From IMG/VR virus record IMGVR_UViG_3300021084_000016, positions 1 through 28,545 of that record: DNA of 28,545 nucleotides, one strand, 5' to 3'. The stretch is from a virus. Of the stretch, positions 11,517-18,010 are shown piece by piece. Numbering within the stretch: position 1 is the first letter of the stretch; the number at the start of each line of letters is the position of its first letter. The translations under genes were made by a program, and so were the position numbers. The notes beneath the pieces are model-generated. The model saw only the letters and a program-made list of their open reading frames with translations. It was not told the DNA's origin and ran no database searches.

Positions 11517-11925
11517 GGGCTTTATTAAGCTGCATAGGAAGATTAAAGATACTAAACTATATAAGGATAGCTCTGCTATGCACTTATGGCTGGAGCTCCT
11601 TATTAGAACTAATCATACTGAAAATAGCTGGAATTATAAAGGTAAGCTATGCTCTGTAAAAGCTGGAGAATGTTTAGTATCTTTACAGACTTTAGCTGAT
11701 AGCTTAGGTATGAAGGTAAGCAAAGTAAGGAGCATACTTAAGAGGCTAAAAAGAGCAGAGATGATAAGTACTAAAAGTACTCCCTATCATACTCATATTA
11801 AGATAGTTAGCTGGAATAAATACCAGGAGCAAAATAAAAAAGAGCATAGTAAAAATATAAAAAGAGCATATAATAAGAATGATATTATTTATAAGCCTTT
11901 AAAAACAATTAAAAAATTAATATGA
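11506..11925 (+). CDS. Replisome organizer-like winged-helix replication protein
   Basis: This 139-residue protein begins GFIKLHRKIKDTKLYKD, with HLWLELLIRTNH, then KAGECLVSLQTLADSLGMKVSKVRSILKRLKRAEMI (about 54-88), a winged helix-turn-helix, and IKIVSWNKYQE. That pattern is typical of the N-terminal domain of phage replisome organizers (DnaD or Rep_N type) that bind the origin and recruit the helicase loader. The Lys/Asn-rich tail (about 107-139) is encoded by AAAGAGCATA repeats that look iteron-like. There is no C-terminal DnaD domain. Its stop overlaps the dnaB start by four bases, consistent with helicase loading. Confidence 0.75.
   Translation: MQSKGFIKLHRKIKDTKLYKDSSAMHLWLELLIRTNHTENSWNYKGKLCSVKAGECLVSLQTLADSLGMKVSKVRSILKRLKRAEMISTKSTPYHTHIKIVSWNKYQEQNKKEHSKNIKRAYNKNDIIYKPLKTIKKLI
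11839..11893 (+). repeat. Iteron-like AAAGAGCATA repeats inside replication gene
   Basis: AAAGAGCATA occurs at 11839-11848 and 11861-11870, followed by an AT-rich stretch with AATAAGAATGATAT. The same ordered words recur in the non-coding stretch 21437-21560. Phage origins often lie inside the organizer gene as repeats in the sequence for its linker, so this is a candidate origin. The 10-mer also occurs singly at 5034-5043 (portal) and 23527-23536, so the clustering is the signal. Confidence 0.45.
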
Positions 11926-13217
11926 TAAATATACCTAATGATAAGAATTTAGAGAGTAAGGTACTATCTGCTTTAATGAATACTACAGAGGCTATACATA
12001 TTATAGCCTCAGTACTACAGCCTAGCAGTTTTTATACTAATGAAAATAGGCTTATATATGTAACTTGTATAGATTTATATAATGCTAGTAAAATTCCTGA
12101 TATGAGCCTAGTAGCTGCTGAGCTTAAAGGTAAAGTAGATTTAATATATATATCTGAGATAGCTGGAGAGTTTGCTGATGAGATGGTATTACCAGATTAT
12201 TGTAGAGTATTAAAGGAGCTGGAGATGAGGAGAGATATGCTAGCTGGAATAAATAAGATGCAGAAGGCTGCTAACTTAGATACTGATATTTTTGATTTAA
12301 CTGCTGAGGTAAGTAGCTATATTGATAAGGTAGGTGCAGCTCCTAAGGAAACTATAGTAAATACTACTACTCTATTTAAAGATACTTTTACTGCTATTGA
12401 GGAGGCTAGCCAGAATAAAGGAGGCTGTACTGGTATATCTACTGGATTTAATGACTTAGATAGGCTTACTAATGGATTTGGTAAAGGAGAGTTAATAATA
12501 CTAGCAGCACGCCCTGGAATGGGTAAGACTACTCTAGCTCTTAACTTTATGCTAGAGGCTGTAAAACAGCAGAAGAGGGTACTGATGTATTCTGTAGAAA
12601 TGACTGCTACTGAGCTAGGATTAAAGCTAGTATCTAATCTATCTGGTATAGAAGGAGATAGAATACATAGAGGCAAGCTAACAGATGAGGAGTATAAAGG
12701 AGTATATAATGATACTGCTGCTATTATTAACTCTGGCTTACTTAATGTAGATGCTGAAACTTCTAATTTATTTGGTATAAAGAATGTAGCTAAAAAGCTC
12801 AATCATAAGAGTAAAATAGATATGATTATTATAGATTATATACAGCTATTATCTGGAGGAGATAAAACTAATAAGCAGCAAAATAGAGAGCAGCAGATAA
12901 GCTTTATAAGTAGGCAATTAAAAGCCTTAGCTAAGGAGTTAGATATACCTATTATTTGCTTAAGCCAGCTTAGTAGAGCAGTAGAGAGTAGAGGTAATAA
13001 ACGCCCTATGTTATCCGATTTACGAGAATCTGGAGCTATAGAGCAAGATGCTAATAAGGTACTATTTATATTTAGAGATGGCTACTATGCTAAAAATAAT
13101 GATACTACTACAGAGGTAATAGTAGCAAAGAATAGAGCTGGTAGTTTAGGTACTGCTATGCTAGACTTTAGAGGAGCTACCTCTAATTTTACAAGTGAAG
13201 ATTTTAAACCTTTTTAA
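11922..13217 (+). CDS. dnaB: DnaB-like replicative helicase
   Basis: The 431-residue protein unwinds DNA ahead of the replication fork. An N-terminal DnaB helical domain (about 1-100, ESKVLSALMN, PSSFYTNENRLIY) is followed by a linker and a RecA-type ATPase domain (about 168-431). Motifs: Walker A ARPGMGKTT at 196-204, the SVEM segment at 224-227, Walker B IIIDYIQLL with Asp305, QLSRAVE and DLRESGAIEQDAN. Its length is normal. It is coupled to the replisome-organizer-like gene upstream. The genome has no primase or polymerase that I recognise, so it should serve a host replisome. Confidence 0.93.
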   Translation: MINIPNDKNLESKVLSALMNTTEAIHIIASVLQPSSFYTNENRLIYVTCIDLYNASKIPDMSLVAAELKGKVDLIYISEIAGEFADEMVLPDYCRVLKELEMRRDMLAGINKMQKAANLDTDIFDLTAEVSSYIDKVGAAPKETIVNTTTLFKDTFTAIEEASQNKGGCTGISTGFNDLDRLTNGFGKGELIILAARPGMGKTTLALNFMLEAVKQQKRVLMYSVEMTATELGLKLVSNLSGIEGDRIHRGKLTDEEYKGVYNDTAAIINSGLLNVDAETSNLFGIKNVAKKLNHKSKIDMIIIDYIQLLSGGDKTNKQQNREQQISFISRQLKALAKELDIPIICLSQLSRAVESRGNKRPMLSDLRESGAIEQDANKVLFIFRDGYYAKNNDTTTEVIVAKNRAGSLGTAMLDFRGATSNFTSEDFKPF

Positions 13218-13218
13218 T

Positions 13219-14499
13219 ATGAGTATAAAAAATAAATACAAAGTACTGAGCATAAAAAAAGAGCTAACTTATGAGTGGCTATTAAAAAAGCACTATGCAA
13301 AAAGACTACCTAGCATATCATATTCTTTTGGCTTGTATAATTGTAATATTTTAGTAGGAGTGTGTACTTTTGGTATGCCTCCTAGCAGTACTTTATGTGA
13401 GAGTATTGCTGGTGCTAAATATAAAAGTTTAGTTCTAGAGCTTAATAGATTAGTTAGTAATGATGATTTAGATAAAAATGCTCTAAGTTATTTTGTAAGT
13501 AATGCTATTAGTCAATTACCTAAGCCTAAAATTATAGTTTCATTTTCTGACAATAATATGTATCATAATGGCTATATATATCAAGCTACTAATTTTATTT
13601 ATACTGGATTGAGTAGTAATGTTATCCAGTATATAGATAAAGATGGTAAAGAGTTTCATTTTAGGAATATCGGACATACACAAAAGAAACTAAATAATAG
13701 CATAAATATAAAAAAAAGGATAATTAACAATTTGTCAGATGATTTATTAAAAAAAGAATACCTAAATATATTAGATAAAAATAAATTTACTGGACATTGT
13801 TATGTAGCTAGCGAAACTTATTACCATCTATCTACTGAGAAACTTAAAATTTATCATATAAAGCACGAAAATTCTACTCATTGGTTTTTAAAAAATGATA
13901 AAAATGAGATTATAGATTTAACTTACCAACAATTTAAAACTCCAGTACCATATAATAATGCAAGGGGAGGAGCTTTTTTAACAAAAAAGCCCAGTAAGAG
14001 AAGTGTAGTTTTAATAAATAGAGTAGTTAATGATGAGTTTACTATAGTTAAAAGGAGATTAAACGAAGATAAAATAAATAGAATTGATATGGCTAATTAT
14101 ATTAGAGAAAACAAAGGGGAGTTAAATGCTAAAAAACTAGATAAAATATTCGGATATAAAGATACTGCTGCCCATTGGTTTAGAACTGATGGAGGATTTA
14201 GTTTTGTTAAAGTAGATGATTGGATGAAGTTAAAAGACTTACTAAATTTAGATGATACTTTTGATGATGTTATGCTGGATTTTGAATGGGTTGCAGATGT
14301 TAAGGACATAATTAAAAAGCTAGAGTTAAAAAAAGTAGATATTAAACCTAAAAATAGATATGTTTTTATATCAGCTAATAAAAGAGATAAAAGAGATATA
14401 ACGAAAAATTTAAAATACACTAGCCTTACATATCCTAAAGGAGATAATAAAAATTATAATGCTGCATATAATCCAGTAATACAAACTGAGATATTTTAA
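13219..14499 (+). CDS. Mom-like DNA-modification protein, three-domain fusion
   Basis: I read 426 residues from ATG 13219, one base after the dnaB stop; an upstream ATG at 13195 would add eight residues inside dnaB. Residues 1-135 resemble the Mom family of adenine-modifying, acyltransferase-fold phage proteins: KKHYAKRLP at 23-31, FGLYNCNILVGVCTFG, LELNRLVSNDD, SFSDNNMYHNGYIYQATNF and YTGLS. Residues about 190-262 form a second module with GHCYVASE (Cys194), THWFL (His221), IIDLT (Asp233) and GGAFLTKKPSKR, a papain-like triad order. Residues about 283-426 include DTAAHWFRTDGGFSF and resemble an accessory segment I recall from phage DNA methyltransferases. Mom in phage Mu modifies adenine to block restriction; here the target and chemistry are unknown. 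The next gene is RusA. Confidence 0.7.
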   Translation: MSIKNKYKVLSIKKELTYEWLLKKHYAKRLPSISYSFGLYNCNILVGVCTFGMPPSSTLCESIAGAKYKSLVLELNRLVSNDDLDKNALSYFVSNAISQLPKPKIIVSFSDNNMYHNGYIYQATNFIYTGLSSNVIQYIDKDGKEFHFRNIGHTQKKLNNSINIKKRIINNLSDDLLKKEYLNILDKNKFTGHCYVASETYYHLSTEKLKIYHIKHENSTHWFLKNDKNEIIDLTYQQFKTPVPYNNARGGAFLTKKPSKRSVVLINRVVNDEFTIVKRRLNEDKINRIDMANYIRENKGELNAKKLDKIFGYKDTAAHWFRTDGGFSFVKVDDWMKLKDLLNLDDTFDDVMLDFEWVADVKDIIKKLELKKVDIKPKNRYVFISANKRDKRDITKNLKYTSLTYPKGDNKNYNAAYNPVIQTEIF

Positions 14500-14500
14500 T

Positions 14501-14869
14501 ATGAGATTAGAATTTAATATAAAGCCGTGCCCTAAGCCTAGAATGACTAGAGCTGATAGATGGAAGAAGAGACCTATAGTACTTAAATACTGGAGCTTTT
14601 GTAATGAGTTAGAGAGGCAAGCTCATAAGCTAGAATATACTCCAGGAGATAAAGTTAGCTTAATCTTTTTTATTCCTATGGCTAAAAGCTGGAGTAAAAA
14701 GAAGAGAGCTTTAATGCTAGGTAAACCTCATAAGCAGAAACCAGACATAGATAATCTAGCTAAGGCTTTTTTAGATGCTCTACTAGATGAGGATAGTTAT
14801 GTATATTCTTTAACTGCTGAGAAGTACTGGAGTGAGGAAGGAAGTATTGTAGTATTAACAGATGAGTAA
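14501..14869 (+). CDS. rusA: RusA-like Holliday junction resolvase
   Basis: The 122-residue endonuclease should resolve branched DNA before packaging. The hallmark KPDIDNLAKAFLDAL at 80-94 supplies the acidic residues Asp82 and Asp84, and a further acidic pair lies at 97-98. The basic N-terminal half (KPCPKPRMTRADRWKKRP) suits junction binding. Its length matches RusA. It begins one base after the Mom-like gene's stop and overlaps the next gene by eight bases. Confidence 0.9.
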   Translation: MRLEFNIKPCPKPRMTRADRWKKRPIVLKYWSFCNELERQAHKLEYTPGDKVSLIFFIPMAKSWSKKKRALMLGKPHKQKPDIDNLAKAFLDALLDEDSYVYSLTAEKYWSEEGSIVVLTDE

Positions 14870-15567: not shown

Positions 15568-16123
15568 TAAAGATGTATATAAAGCCTTAGAAGAGGGTTA
15601 TATTAAATTTAAGGATGTAGCTCTTAATATCTGTAATGATGAGGATAAGGCTAGTGATGTTGTACAGATGACTATGGAGGCAGTATTAAAAATGCCTAAA
15701 GAAACTCTACAGGATATATATAATAAAGGAGGATTATTATGGTATGTAATAAGGATTATTAATCTTAATATTAAGAGTAAGACTAGTAGATACTACTATA
15801 AATATAATAAATACTATGAGCTAGTAGATAGTAATAATTCTGCTGCTACATACTCTCCAGATTATTACGAGAATAAGCCAGGAGATGATGAGAGGAGTAG
15901 TACTCATATTAGGCTGGATGCTATTGAGGAGCTAATAGAGGATTTATACTGGTATGATAGGGAGTTATTTTTAACCTATTATAAAGGCTCTTATACTTTA
16001 GATACTTTAAGTGATAAGACTGGTATAAGCCGCTCCAGTATTTTTAATACTATTAAGAGAGTAAAAGACTATATAAAAGATAATATAAATGAAAAAGCCA
16101 GGCAAATTAAAGAAACTGAGTAA
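15560..16123 (+). CDS. Sigma-70-like RNA polymerase sigma factor
   Basis: The 187-residue protein resembles a small sigma factor. Residues about 10-75 match region 2 loosely (FKDVALNICNDEDKASDVVQMTMEAVLKMP, then WYVIRIINLNIKS). Residues about 120-175 fit region 4, with ELIEDLYWYDRELFLTYYKGSYTLDTLSDKTGISRSSIFNTIKRVKDYI, a clear helix-turn-helix. The linker is acidic and Tyr-rich. In Bacteroidota phages such factors probably switch host RNA polymerase to late phage promoters. The late genes lack the TTTG and TAnnTTTG boxes, which agrees. It overlaps the following cysteine-rich gene by 35 bases. Confidence 0.75.
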   Translation: MNNKDVYKALEEGYIKFKDVALNICNDEDKASDVVQMTMEAVLKMPKETLQDIYNKGGLLWYVIRIINLNIKSKTSRYYYKYNKYYELVDSNNSAATYSPDYYENKPGDDERSSTHIRLDAIEELIEDLYWYDRELFLTYYKGSYTLDTLSDKTGISRSSIFNTIKRVKDYIKDNINEKARQIKETE

Positions 16124-16325
16124 TTTTACTTTAGCTGCTGCTAAGTTTGCAGCTGGAGGATTTATAGAGAGCTCTAAGGAGGTATATGATAGTAGAGTAT
16201 TAACTTGCTTAGCCTGTCCTTTTTATAATGTAGATACTGATGATTGTAATAAGTGCGGCTGTCCGATTGAGGTAAAAGCTAAATGGAGTACTGAGAGCTG
16301 CCCAGAAAATAAATGGAGTAAATAA
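16089..16325 (+). CDS. Cysteine-rich small protein, 78 aa
   Basis: The N-terminus is basic (KKPGKLKKL), followed by a small hydrophobic stretch. Six cysteines lie at 40, 43, 53, 56, 58 and 71, in CLAC, CNKCGC and ESCPENKW motifs, a probable zinc-binding knuckle. The pattern recurs in phages as a conserved protein of unknown role. The long overlap with the sigma-like gene suggests coupled translation. It may assist transcription or act as a redox-sensitive binding protein; neither is shown. Confidence 0.65.
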   Translation: MKKPGKLKKLSNFTLAAAKFAAGGFIESSKEVYDSRVLTCLACPFYNVDTDDCNKCGCPIEVKAKWSTESCPENKWSK

Positions 16326-16858: not shown

Positions 16859-17087
16859 AATACCTAATTATTATATAGGCTCAGTATATGGCTATGAGGC
16901 TAGGAAGGTAGTAGAAGATTATAACCTATCTTATAATAGTGGAGTAGCAGTATCTTACCTCCTCAGAGCTGGAGTTAAAAGTAGTAATAGCCTAAGCCAG
17001 ATAGATAAGGAGATAGATGATATTAAGAAGGCAATAAACCATCTTAATTTTGAGATAGATAAGTTAAATAATATTAAAGATAAATGA
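16851..17087 (+). CDS. Small coiled-coil protein, 78 aa
   Basis: The protein starts with a Tyr-rich motif (IPNYYIGSVYGYEARKVVEDYNLSYN) and ends in a predicted coiled coil (about 47-78, IDKEIDDIKKAINHLNFEIDKL). The central part resembles a ribbon-helix-helix-like helix pair (SGVAVSYLLRAGVKS), so DNA binding with a coiled-coil dimer is possible. It overlaps the methyltransferase start by four bases (ATGA). No family is assigned. Confidence 0.6.
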   Translation: MSKIPNYYIGSVYGYEARKVVEDYNLSYNSGVAVSYLLRAGVKSSNSLSQIDKEIDDIKKAINHLNFEIDKLNNIKDK

Positions 17088-18010
17088 TTAAATTATACAA
17101 AGGCGATTGCTTAATAGAAAGCGATAAAATAGAAAGCGGTAGCGTTGATTTAATATTGACTGATTTACCTTATGGAAATATGAAAAACGCACCAAGCACT
17201 TGGGATAAATCTAAAACAGAATGGGATACAACTATACACCCTAAAAAAGTTTATGAAATTGCAAACCGTATATTAAGAAAAAACGGAAAAATGATTTTAT
17301 TTAGCCAAGAACCTTACACGACTAAACTAATTAGTGAAGCAATACCAAACATACCATTTAATTATAGAATGGTTTGGGAAAAAGATAGTTTTGGTAATGT
17401 ATTAATGTGTAATAAAGCACCCGTAAGTTATATAGAGGATGTTTTAGCTTTTAGTAAAAATAACGAGTTTGAAGGATTGCACCCTTTAAGACCATATTTT
17501 AAACAAGTATTTGAATTTATTGGAGGTACTAAAAAATACATAATGGAAGTTGTAGGGCAAAGAGCAGACCACGTTTTTAGATTTAAAAGTTCTCAATTTG
17601 ATTTATGTACTTTAGAAACTTACAAAGACTTAATTAGGTATTTTGAAATAGATAAAATGCAAGGTTTTAAAGAGTTTGGTTATTTGCAAAGTATTGACAA
17701 TGATTTTAAAATAAAATTTGCAAGTACTTTTAATTTATGGGATGGTAATAAATACAAAAGCAATATTCTTAAATATAAAAAAGATTATGAAGGACATCAT
17801 CCAACGCAAAAGCCTGTTTTATTATTAGAAGATTTAATAAAAACCTTTAGTAATGAGAATGATTTAGTAGTTGATTTAACTATGGGTTCAGGAAGTACAG
17901 GAGTAGCCGCAAAGAATACTAACAGAAACTTTATAGGAATAGAACAGGATGAGAAGTATTTTAAGATTGCAGAGCAAAGAATAAAAGAAACCGAATATAA
18001 ATTGTTTTAA
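17084..18010 (+). CDS. DNA adenine or N4-cytosine methyltransferase, beta class
   Basis: The 308-residue enzyme transfers a methyl group from SAM to an exocyclic amino group in DNA. Motif order is IV then I: the catalytic motif is TDLPYG at 26-31 (a DPPY variant), a target-recognition region follows, then HPTQKP (near 244-249) and the SAM motif DLTMGSGSTG at 264-273. That order defines the beta class. No restriction endonuclease gene is adjacent, so it is an orphan that probably protects phage DNA. By eye, base use differs from its neighbours: more GAA, AAA and CGT codons and fewer CTA, TAG and AGC words, which suggests recent acquisition. Target sequence unknown. Confidence 0.88.
   Translation: MIKLYKGDCLIESDKIESGSVDLILTDLPYGNMKNAPSTWDKSKTEWDTTIHPKKVYEIANRILRKNGKMILFSQEPYTTKLISEAIPNIPFNYRMVWEKDSFGNVLMCNKAPVSYIEDVLAFSKNNEFEGLHPLRPYFKQVFEFIGGTKKYIMEVVGQRADHVFRFKSSQFDLCTLETYKDLIRYFEIDKMQGFKEFGYLQSIDNDFKIKFASTFNLWDGNKYKSNILKYKKDYEGHHPTQKPVLLLEDLIKTFSNENDLVVDLTMGSGSTGVAAKNTNRNFIGIEQDEKYFKIAEQRIKETEYKLF

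Follow-up and report, generated by a model that had tools for sequence, protein, structure and literature searches.

A phage Mom family protein with a YunG-type Cys-His-Asp domain and a probable DNA-reading module inserted in one loop

Mom was recognized decades ago, and a single product has been defined for it. The form with the closest solved structure is Mu Mom (PDB 8bv8; Pfam PF25680; PHROG 1384), which consists of a GNAT core and a C-terminal tail. Mom can also be one domain of a larger protein, since a jumbo-phage Mom fused to an REase-fold nuclease has been described (PMC7824862). Here we analyse a gene in a 28,545-nucleotide stretch of viral DNA (IMG/VR record IMGVR_UViG_3300021084_000016, positions 1 to 28,545; hereafter the window). 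The encoded protein shares with Mu Mom the GNAT core, the C-terminal tail, the conserved motifs and a probable counterpart of Ser124, and differs from it in carrying two inserts: a domain resembling the YunG family (PF24585, Bacillus subtilis YunG) and a small helical module, HWFR. Like the jumbo-phage protein, it joins Mom to other domains in a single chain, but the partner there is a nuclease and here a YunG-type domain plus HWFR.

The two inserts have relatives of their own. The YunG-type domain shares the GHC, HW and D-x-T-x-x-Q motifs with the YunG family, its match being weak and below the cut-off, while HWFR is also found where phage C5 and N4/N6 methyltransferases (pelagiphage HTVC309P and Staphylococcus phage Alsa_2) have their target-recognition region; these enzymes transfer methyl groups, in contrast to the GNAT chemistry of Mom. 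The papers searched, a set to which the key Mom papers do not belong, contained no report of Mom with YunG or of Mom with HWFR, and no description of YunG function. Against those papers, what appears to be new is the set of domains, and above all the repeated linkage of YunG to Mom; a member of the Mom family is in itself of a known kind.

A Mom protein with two inserts in one loop

The gene occupies positions 13219–14499 on the + strand. As originally predicted, it is a single frame encoding 426 residues, open throughout and containing every sequence motif quoted in that prediction; it begins with the ATG at 13219, a start shared with plain Mom relatives, which likewise open with MSIKNKYK. 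The gene is flanked by genes for a DnaB-like helicase upstream (11922–13217, +; PHROG 19, E 2e-92) and a RusA-like Holliday junction resolvase downstream (14501–14869, +; PHROG 140, E 4e-26). The same phage encodes a separate N6/N4-type DNA methyltransferase (17084–18010, +; PF01555, E 3e-32), which is without HWFR, and a short Cys-rich, zinc-ribbon-like protein (16089–16325; PHROG 13558). Some part of the 426-residue protein is matched in 360 of 50,697 phage records; an NCBIfam search with it gave no match, and a plasmid search gave a single weak match, in Rhizobium.

By each sequence and fold test run, the protein is a member of the Mom family. The Mom core, residues 1 to ~157 (13219–13689, +), contains the motifs HYAKR, ELNRL, KNALS, SFSD and YIYQATN. 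Residues 7–170 match PF25680 (E 2e-28; 99.9 bits against a curated cut-off of 27.1), the protein matches the Mom-like PHROG 1384 at E 5e-53, and Mu Mom 8bv8 is its sole sequence match in the PDB (E 4e-8). In a full-length AlphaFold2 model, made from an alignment that left out loci from annotated records, the Mom core has pLDDT values mostly of 93–98, and a Foldseek search places 8bv8_B first (E 5e-8, TMt 0.61) and 8bv8_A next (E 5e-7, TMt 0.57; rmsd 2.4). The Mom-type segment read from the letters alone in the original prediction is thus supported by both Pfam and fold comparison, and a GNAT-like N-terminal fold, on which that prediction depended, is present in the model. Ser90 (13486–13488, +), invariant across 63 aligned Mom rows, aligns with the mutated Ala of the 8bv8 S124A construct, and so is probably the counterpart of the Mu catalytic Ser124, the offset in numbering being one that we infer.

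The Mom fold is divided between the two ends of the protein. PHROG 1384 matches the N-terminal ~185 residues plus the last ~50, and a Mom HMM likewise matches in two pieces, the second of which marks Mom's own C-terminal part, residues ~367–426 (KNRYV to YPKG; 14317–14496, +). Plain Mom relatives (L005, L006 and L008–L014; 45–60% identity) lack residues ~158–366, aligning to residues 1 to ~157 and ~367–426 with nothing between. Since these relatives align on both sides only, the YunG-type and HWFR parts are, by sequence alignment, insertions in one Mom loop, just before the C-terminal tail. The predicted order, with Mom followed by a papain-like domain and a third domain at the C-terminus, was therefore wrong, because the C-terminus is formed by Mom's last ~50 residues.

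The closest relatives indicate what was combined. Among the HWFR-bearing Mom proteins of uncultured phages, L182 represents the same gene, with a DNA identity of 84–86% (about 85%) in both flanks, but without the YunG insert of 112 codons, its protein being shorter by 112 residues. The YunG DNA of the window is 84% identical to a stand-alone YunG gene (L025) that overlaps a plain Mom gene. Together, these two likenesses indicate that a Mom+HWFR gene and a YunG gene were brought together in the window gene. A joint MAFFT alignment of Mom, Mom+HWFR and YunG rows laid YunG on the HWFR columns, both having HW, and separate models were used instead.

The HWFR module and phage methyltransferases

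HWFR, residues 274–360 (14038–14298, +), is a small helical domain, probably a DNA-reading part of helix-turn-helix-like kind, with a pLDDT of ~96 in the full-length model. It was found inside ~80 other phage Mom proteins, and every locus of the HWFR scan has the module within Mom, usually in a protein of ~310–325 residues. An HMM made from the Mom copies alone also finds HWFR in two methyltransferases, the N4/N6-type enzyme of Staphylococcus phage Alsa_2 and the C5 enzyme of pelagiphage HTVC309P (L020 and L021; E 6e-10 and 3e-9 for 50,000 sequences), and the PADLOC model MTase_II matches window residues 289–352, within the module. In both methyltransferases HWFR sits between the catalytic motifs, as read from the sequences. 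In these methyltransferase classes the target-recognition domain lies between the catalytic motifs.

Since phage Mom proteins share the module with two kinds of methyltransferase, which carry it where the target is recognized, HWFR probably reads DNA sequence, which is the likeliest role that its distribution suggests. The idea that the third part reads the target thereby gained support as a probable one, even though that part lies elsewhere in the chain than had been supposed. In Alsa_2, the HWFR-bearing methyltransferase gene adjoins a Mom gene.

A plain Mom gene lies beside the HWFR-bearing one in at least ten loci of the scan. Such tandem Mom genes, one with HWFR and one without (two without in L258), are seen in L195, L212, L215, L217, L220, L224, L226, L232, L240, L247 and L258, as though a single phage targeted several motifs for modification.

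The YunG-type domain and its linkage to Mom

The second insert, residues ~158–273 (13690–14037, +), is a predicted papain-like cysteine enzyme, supported by matches to PF24585 and PHROG 12251 (E 1e-13), the comparison with L182 and a model. The window protein scores 21.2 bits against PF24585, below the curated cut-off of 27 (E 3e-4), and its domain is therefore filed as YunG-like only; all 38 aligned YunG relatives match the same family at E ≤ 1, the best at 5e-7. Cys194 (13798–13800, +), His221 (13879–13881, +) and Asp233 (13915–13917, +) are located at the positions originally given, and all 103 distinct relatives compared have the identical residues. The invariance of Cys is partly due to selection, since its motif belonged to the YunG search pattern; His and Asp lie mostly outside that pattern. 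The dN/dS of the domain is ~0.06–0.2, indicating purifying selection, and this value together with the identity of the three residues in all 103 relatives argues from sequence that the triad is more than a chance pattern.

A stand-alone model of the domain has a pLDDT of 90.8, although the same segment, unlike the Mom and HWFR parts, is poorly predicted within the full-length model. In the stand-alone model, Cys opens a helix that runs from model residue 39, and His (model residue 66) lies in the second strand (residues 64–71) of a hairpin, as in papain-like enzymes. Foldseek with this model gave no PDB match at E ≤ 0.001, with the papain-like enzymes USP28, PLpro, MepS and Tse1 appearing solely among weak, non-significant matches; a PDB search with the YunG profile gave chance matches only, and in a BFVD fold search the one match was a viral protein, A0A8S0IAK0 (E 5e-5). 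Since the model is without a significant solved relative, the term papain-like is based on the order of the triad residues and on secondary structure. The domain is probably papain-like, with a model resembling a minimal papain-like fold; of the predicted papain-like triad domain, the conserved Cys-His-Asp residues stood, and no solved papain-like enzyme matched its fold significantly. A transglutaminase-like identity, considered from the H-W and D-x-T spacing, was dropped, fold evidence for it being absent.

YunG and Mom are repeatedly linked, in three arrangements. YunG is inserted in Mom in the window and seven other loci (L001–L004, L027, L031 and L032), precedes Mom in one frame in L040, L270 and L326, and is a gene of its own that shares a few bases with the following Mom gene in L007, L025, L028, L030, L072, L082 and L203. 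In addition, a Mom-nuclease gene lies 23 bases upstream of YunG in L049, and a Mom gene 824 bases upstream in L078. When YunG proteins are clustered at 70% identity, a true Mom lies beside or within 9 of 56 clusters, a further 7 have an overlapping Mom-like GNAT with a GIY-YIG nuclease, and the remaining 40 have neither within the fetched flank, a count biased upward for linkage by a search that started from Mom-linked YunG. Another scan, seeded with YunGs that have no Mom, still turned up a new fusion, L326. The Mom-like GNAT of the GIY-YIG proteins matches Mom in profile comparison at E 4e-5 (probability 69%). Such recurrent fusion and adjacency, in more than one layout, lends weight to the proposal that the second module acts together with Mom.

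When Mom cores are arranged in a tree, fused forms appear at three separate positions, and at each of them an unfused form is the neighbour. A single origin of the fusion was considered, but well-supported branches force at least three changes. These changes may be gains, losses or recombination, of which the shared insertion point favours recombination. The linkage is not obligatory on either side. YunG has other uses, since 40 of the 56 clusters are without Mom in the fetched flank and the YunGs of isolated phages (L018, L019 and L022–L024) are not adjacent to it; Mom, in turn, does not require YunG, which is nearby in only 1 of 80 plain-Mom loci.

YunG was also observed in a variety of other settings. 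A YunG gene overlaps by 17–29 bases a gene for a ~500-residue protein with a Mom-like GNAT and a GIY-YIG homing-type endonuclease in L033, L035, L051, L058, L060, L062–L064, L066, L070, L076 and L339 (upstream in L339), and in L049 (663–2878) it is flanked by a Mom + GIY-YIG gene on one side and a Mom-like GNAT + GIY-YIG gene on the other. The phage protein at L077 (1742–3793) joins a minimal CRISPR polymerase domain (mCpol), YunG and a GNAT in one chain, and a very large polyvalent protein of Myxococcus phage Mx1 (L018, 3941–8305), annotated only as a NUDIX hydrolase, contains YunG, GNAT, ART and NUDIX domains. YunG adjoins a deoxycytidylate-type deaminase gene (by Pfam) in L016 (7476–7967) and shares a frame with a deaminase-like stretch, read from sequence only, in L024 (2146–5856). 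In L274 (6984–7685), ~580 bases downstream of a YunG gene, a protein weakly matching the Mom profile (5e-5) was not counted as Mom, Pfam assigning it to Druantia DruA (E 2e-7); the double match hints at a relation between DruA and Mom.

Proposed route of modification and alternative roles for YunG

We propose that the window protein is an enzyme by which the phage modifies its own DNA, with Mom acylating a base, HWFR directing it and YunG altering the substituent, a reading that we hold to be evenly balanced between right and wrong. In the first step, the GNAT core, whose probable catalytic Ser is kept, would attach an acyl-type group to a base in the phage's DNA; the analogy with Mu points to N6 of adenine. 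In the second, HWFR, placed in the loop before Mom's last strands, would add or change sequence specificity. In the third, the adjoining Cys-His-Asp domain would form a cysteine acyl intermediate at that site and change the substituent by hydrolysis, amide exchange or further transfer. The final mark would differ from that of plain Mom and would resist host restriction. The steps differ in strength: from family membership, acylation of a base by Mom is likely, and direction of Mom to its sites by HWFR is probable, while participation of YunG in modification at all is the weakest step, with the case for it about equal to the case against.

A bolder form of the proposal, which we advance tentatively, is single-chain, two-step hypermodification, in which YunG converts the Mom acyl group into a new substituent at sites chosen by HWFR. 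YunG would then represent a DNA-modification enzyme of a new class, which phages also encode as a separate partner of Mom. If Mom does have a recurrent partner enzyme, phages would build other bases from the Mom reaction, with a bearing on escape from restriction, and the window phage may make a base as yet undescribed. Furthermore, the link of YunG to Mom and GNATs provides a first concrete test for the function of the YunG family, and HWFR offers a route to studying the transfer of sequence specificity among unrelated modifying enzymes.

Two other roles for YunG, both rather unlikely, deserve weighing. YunG might make or load the acyl donor for Mom and other GNATs, working as a thiol acyltransferase before transfer and not on the DNA product. 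The Cys-His-Asp order also fits cysteine acyltransferases, and YunG accompanies GNATs generally, being fused to an ordinary GNAT in L053 and sharing a polypeptide with GNATs in L018, L073, L077 and L268; however, the fused YunG has the Mom core on one side and the putative DNA-reading module on the other, a better fit to action at DNA, and no donor-binding signature was identified. Of comparably low probability is a counter-defence role, in which YunG would be a peptidase or deamidase that serves as an independent weapon alongside Mom, the two being grouped since both counter host defence. Many YunGs occur without Mom, and some are found beside ART, NUDIX and GNAT domains in large polyvalent phage proteins, which have been described as multi-domain conflict proteins (PMC5512222). 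Against this, the insertion within the Mom fold, the several independent-looking types of fusion and the overlapping gene pairs are more specific than a general grouping would be.

An editing or erasing role, in which YunG strips Mom marks from wrong sites or limits modification, would be compatible with a hydrolase triad beside an acyltransferase, but most Mom proteins do without YunG, and we regard this role as improbable. Least credible of all is a catalytically dead structural or DNA-binding spacer: YunG is dispensable in L182-type relatives, but its triad is strictly kept in every distinct relative and its dN/dS is low.
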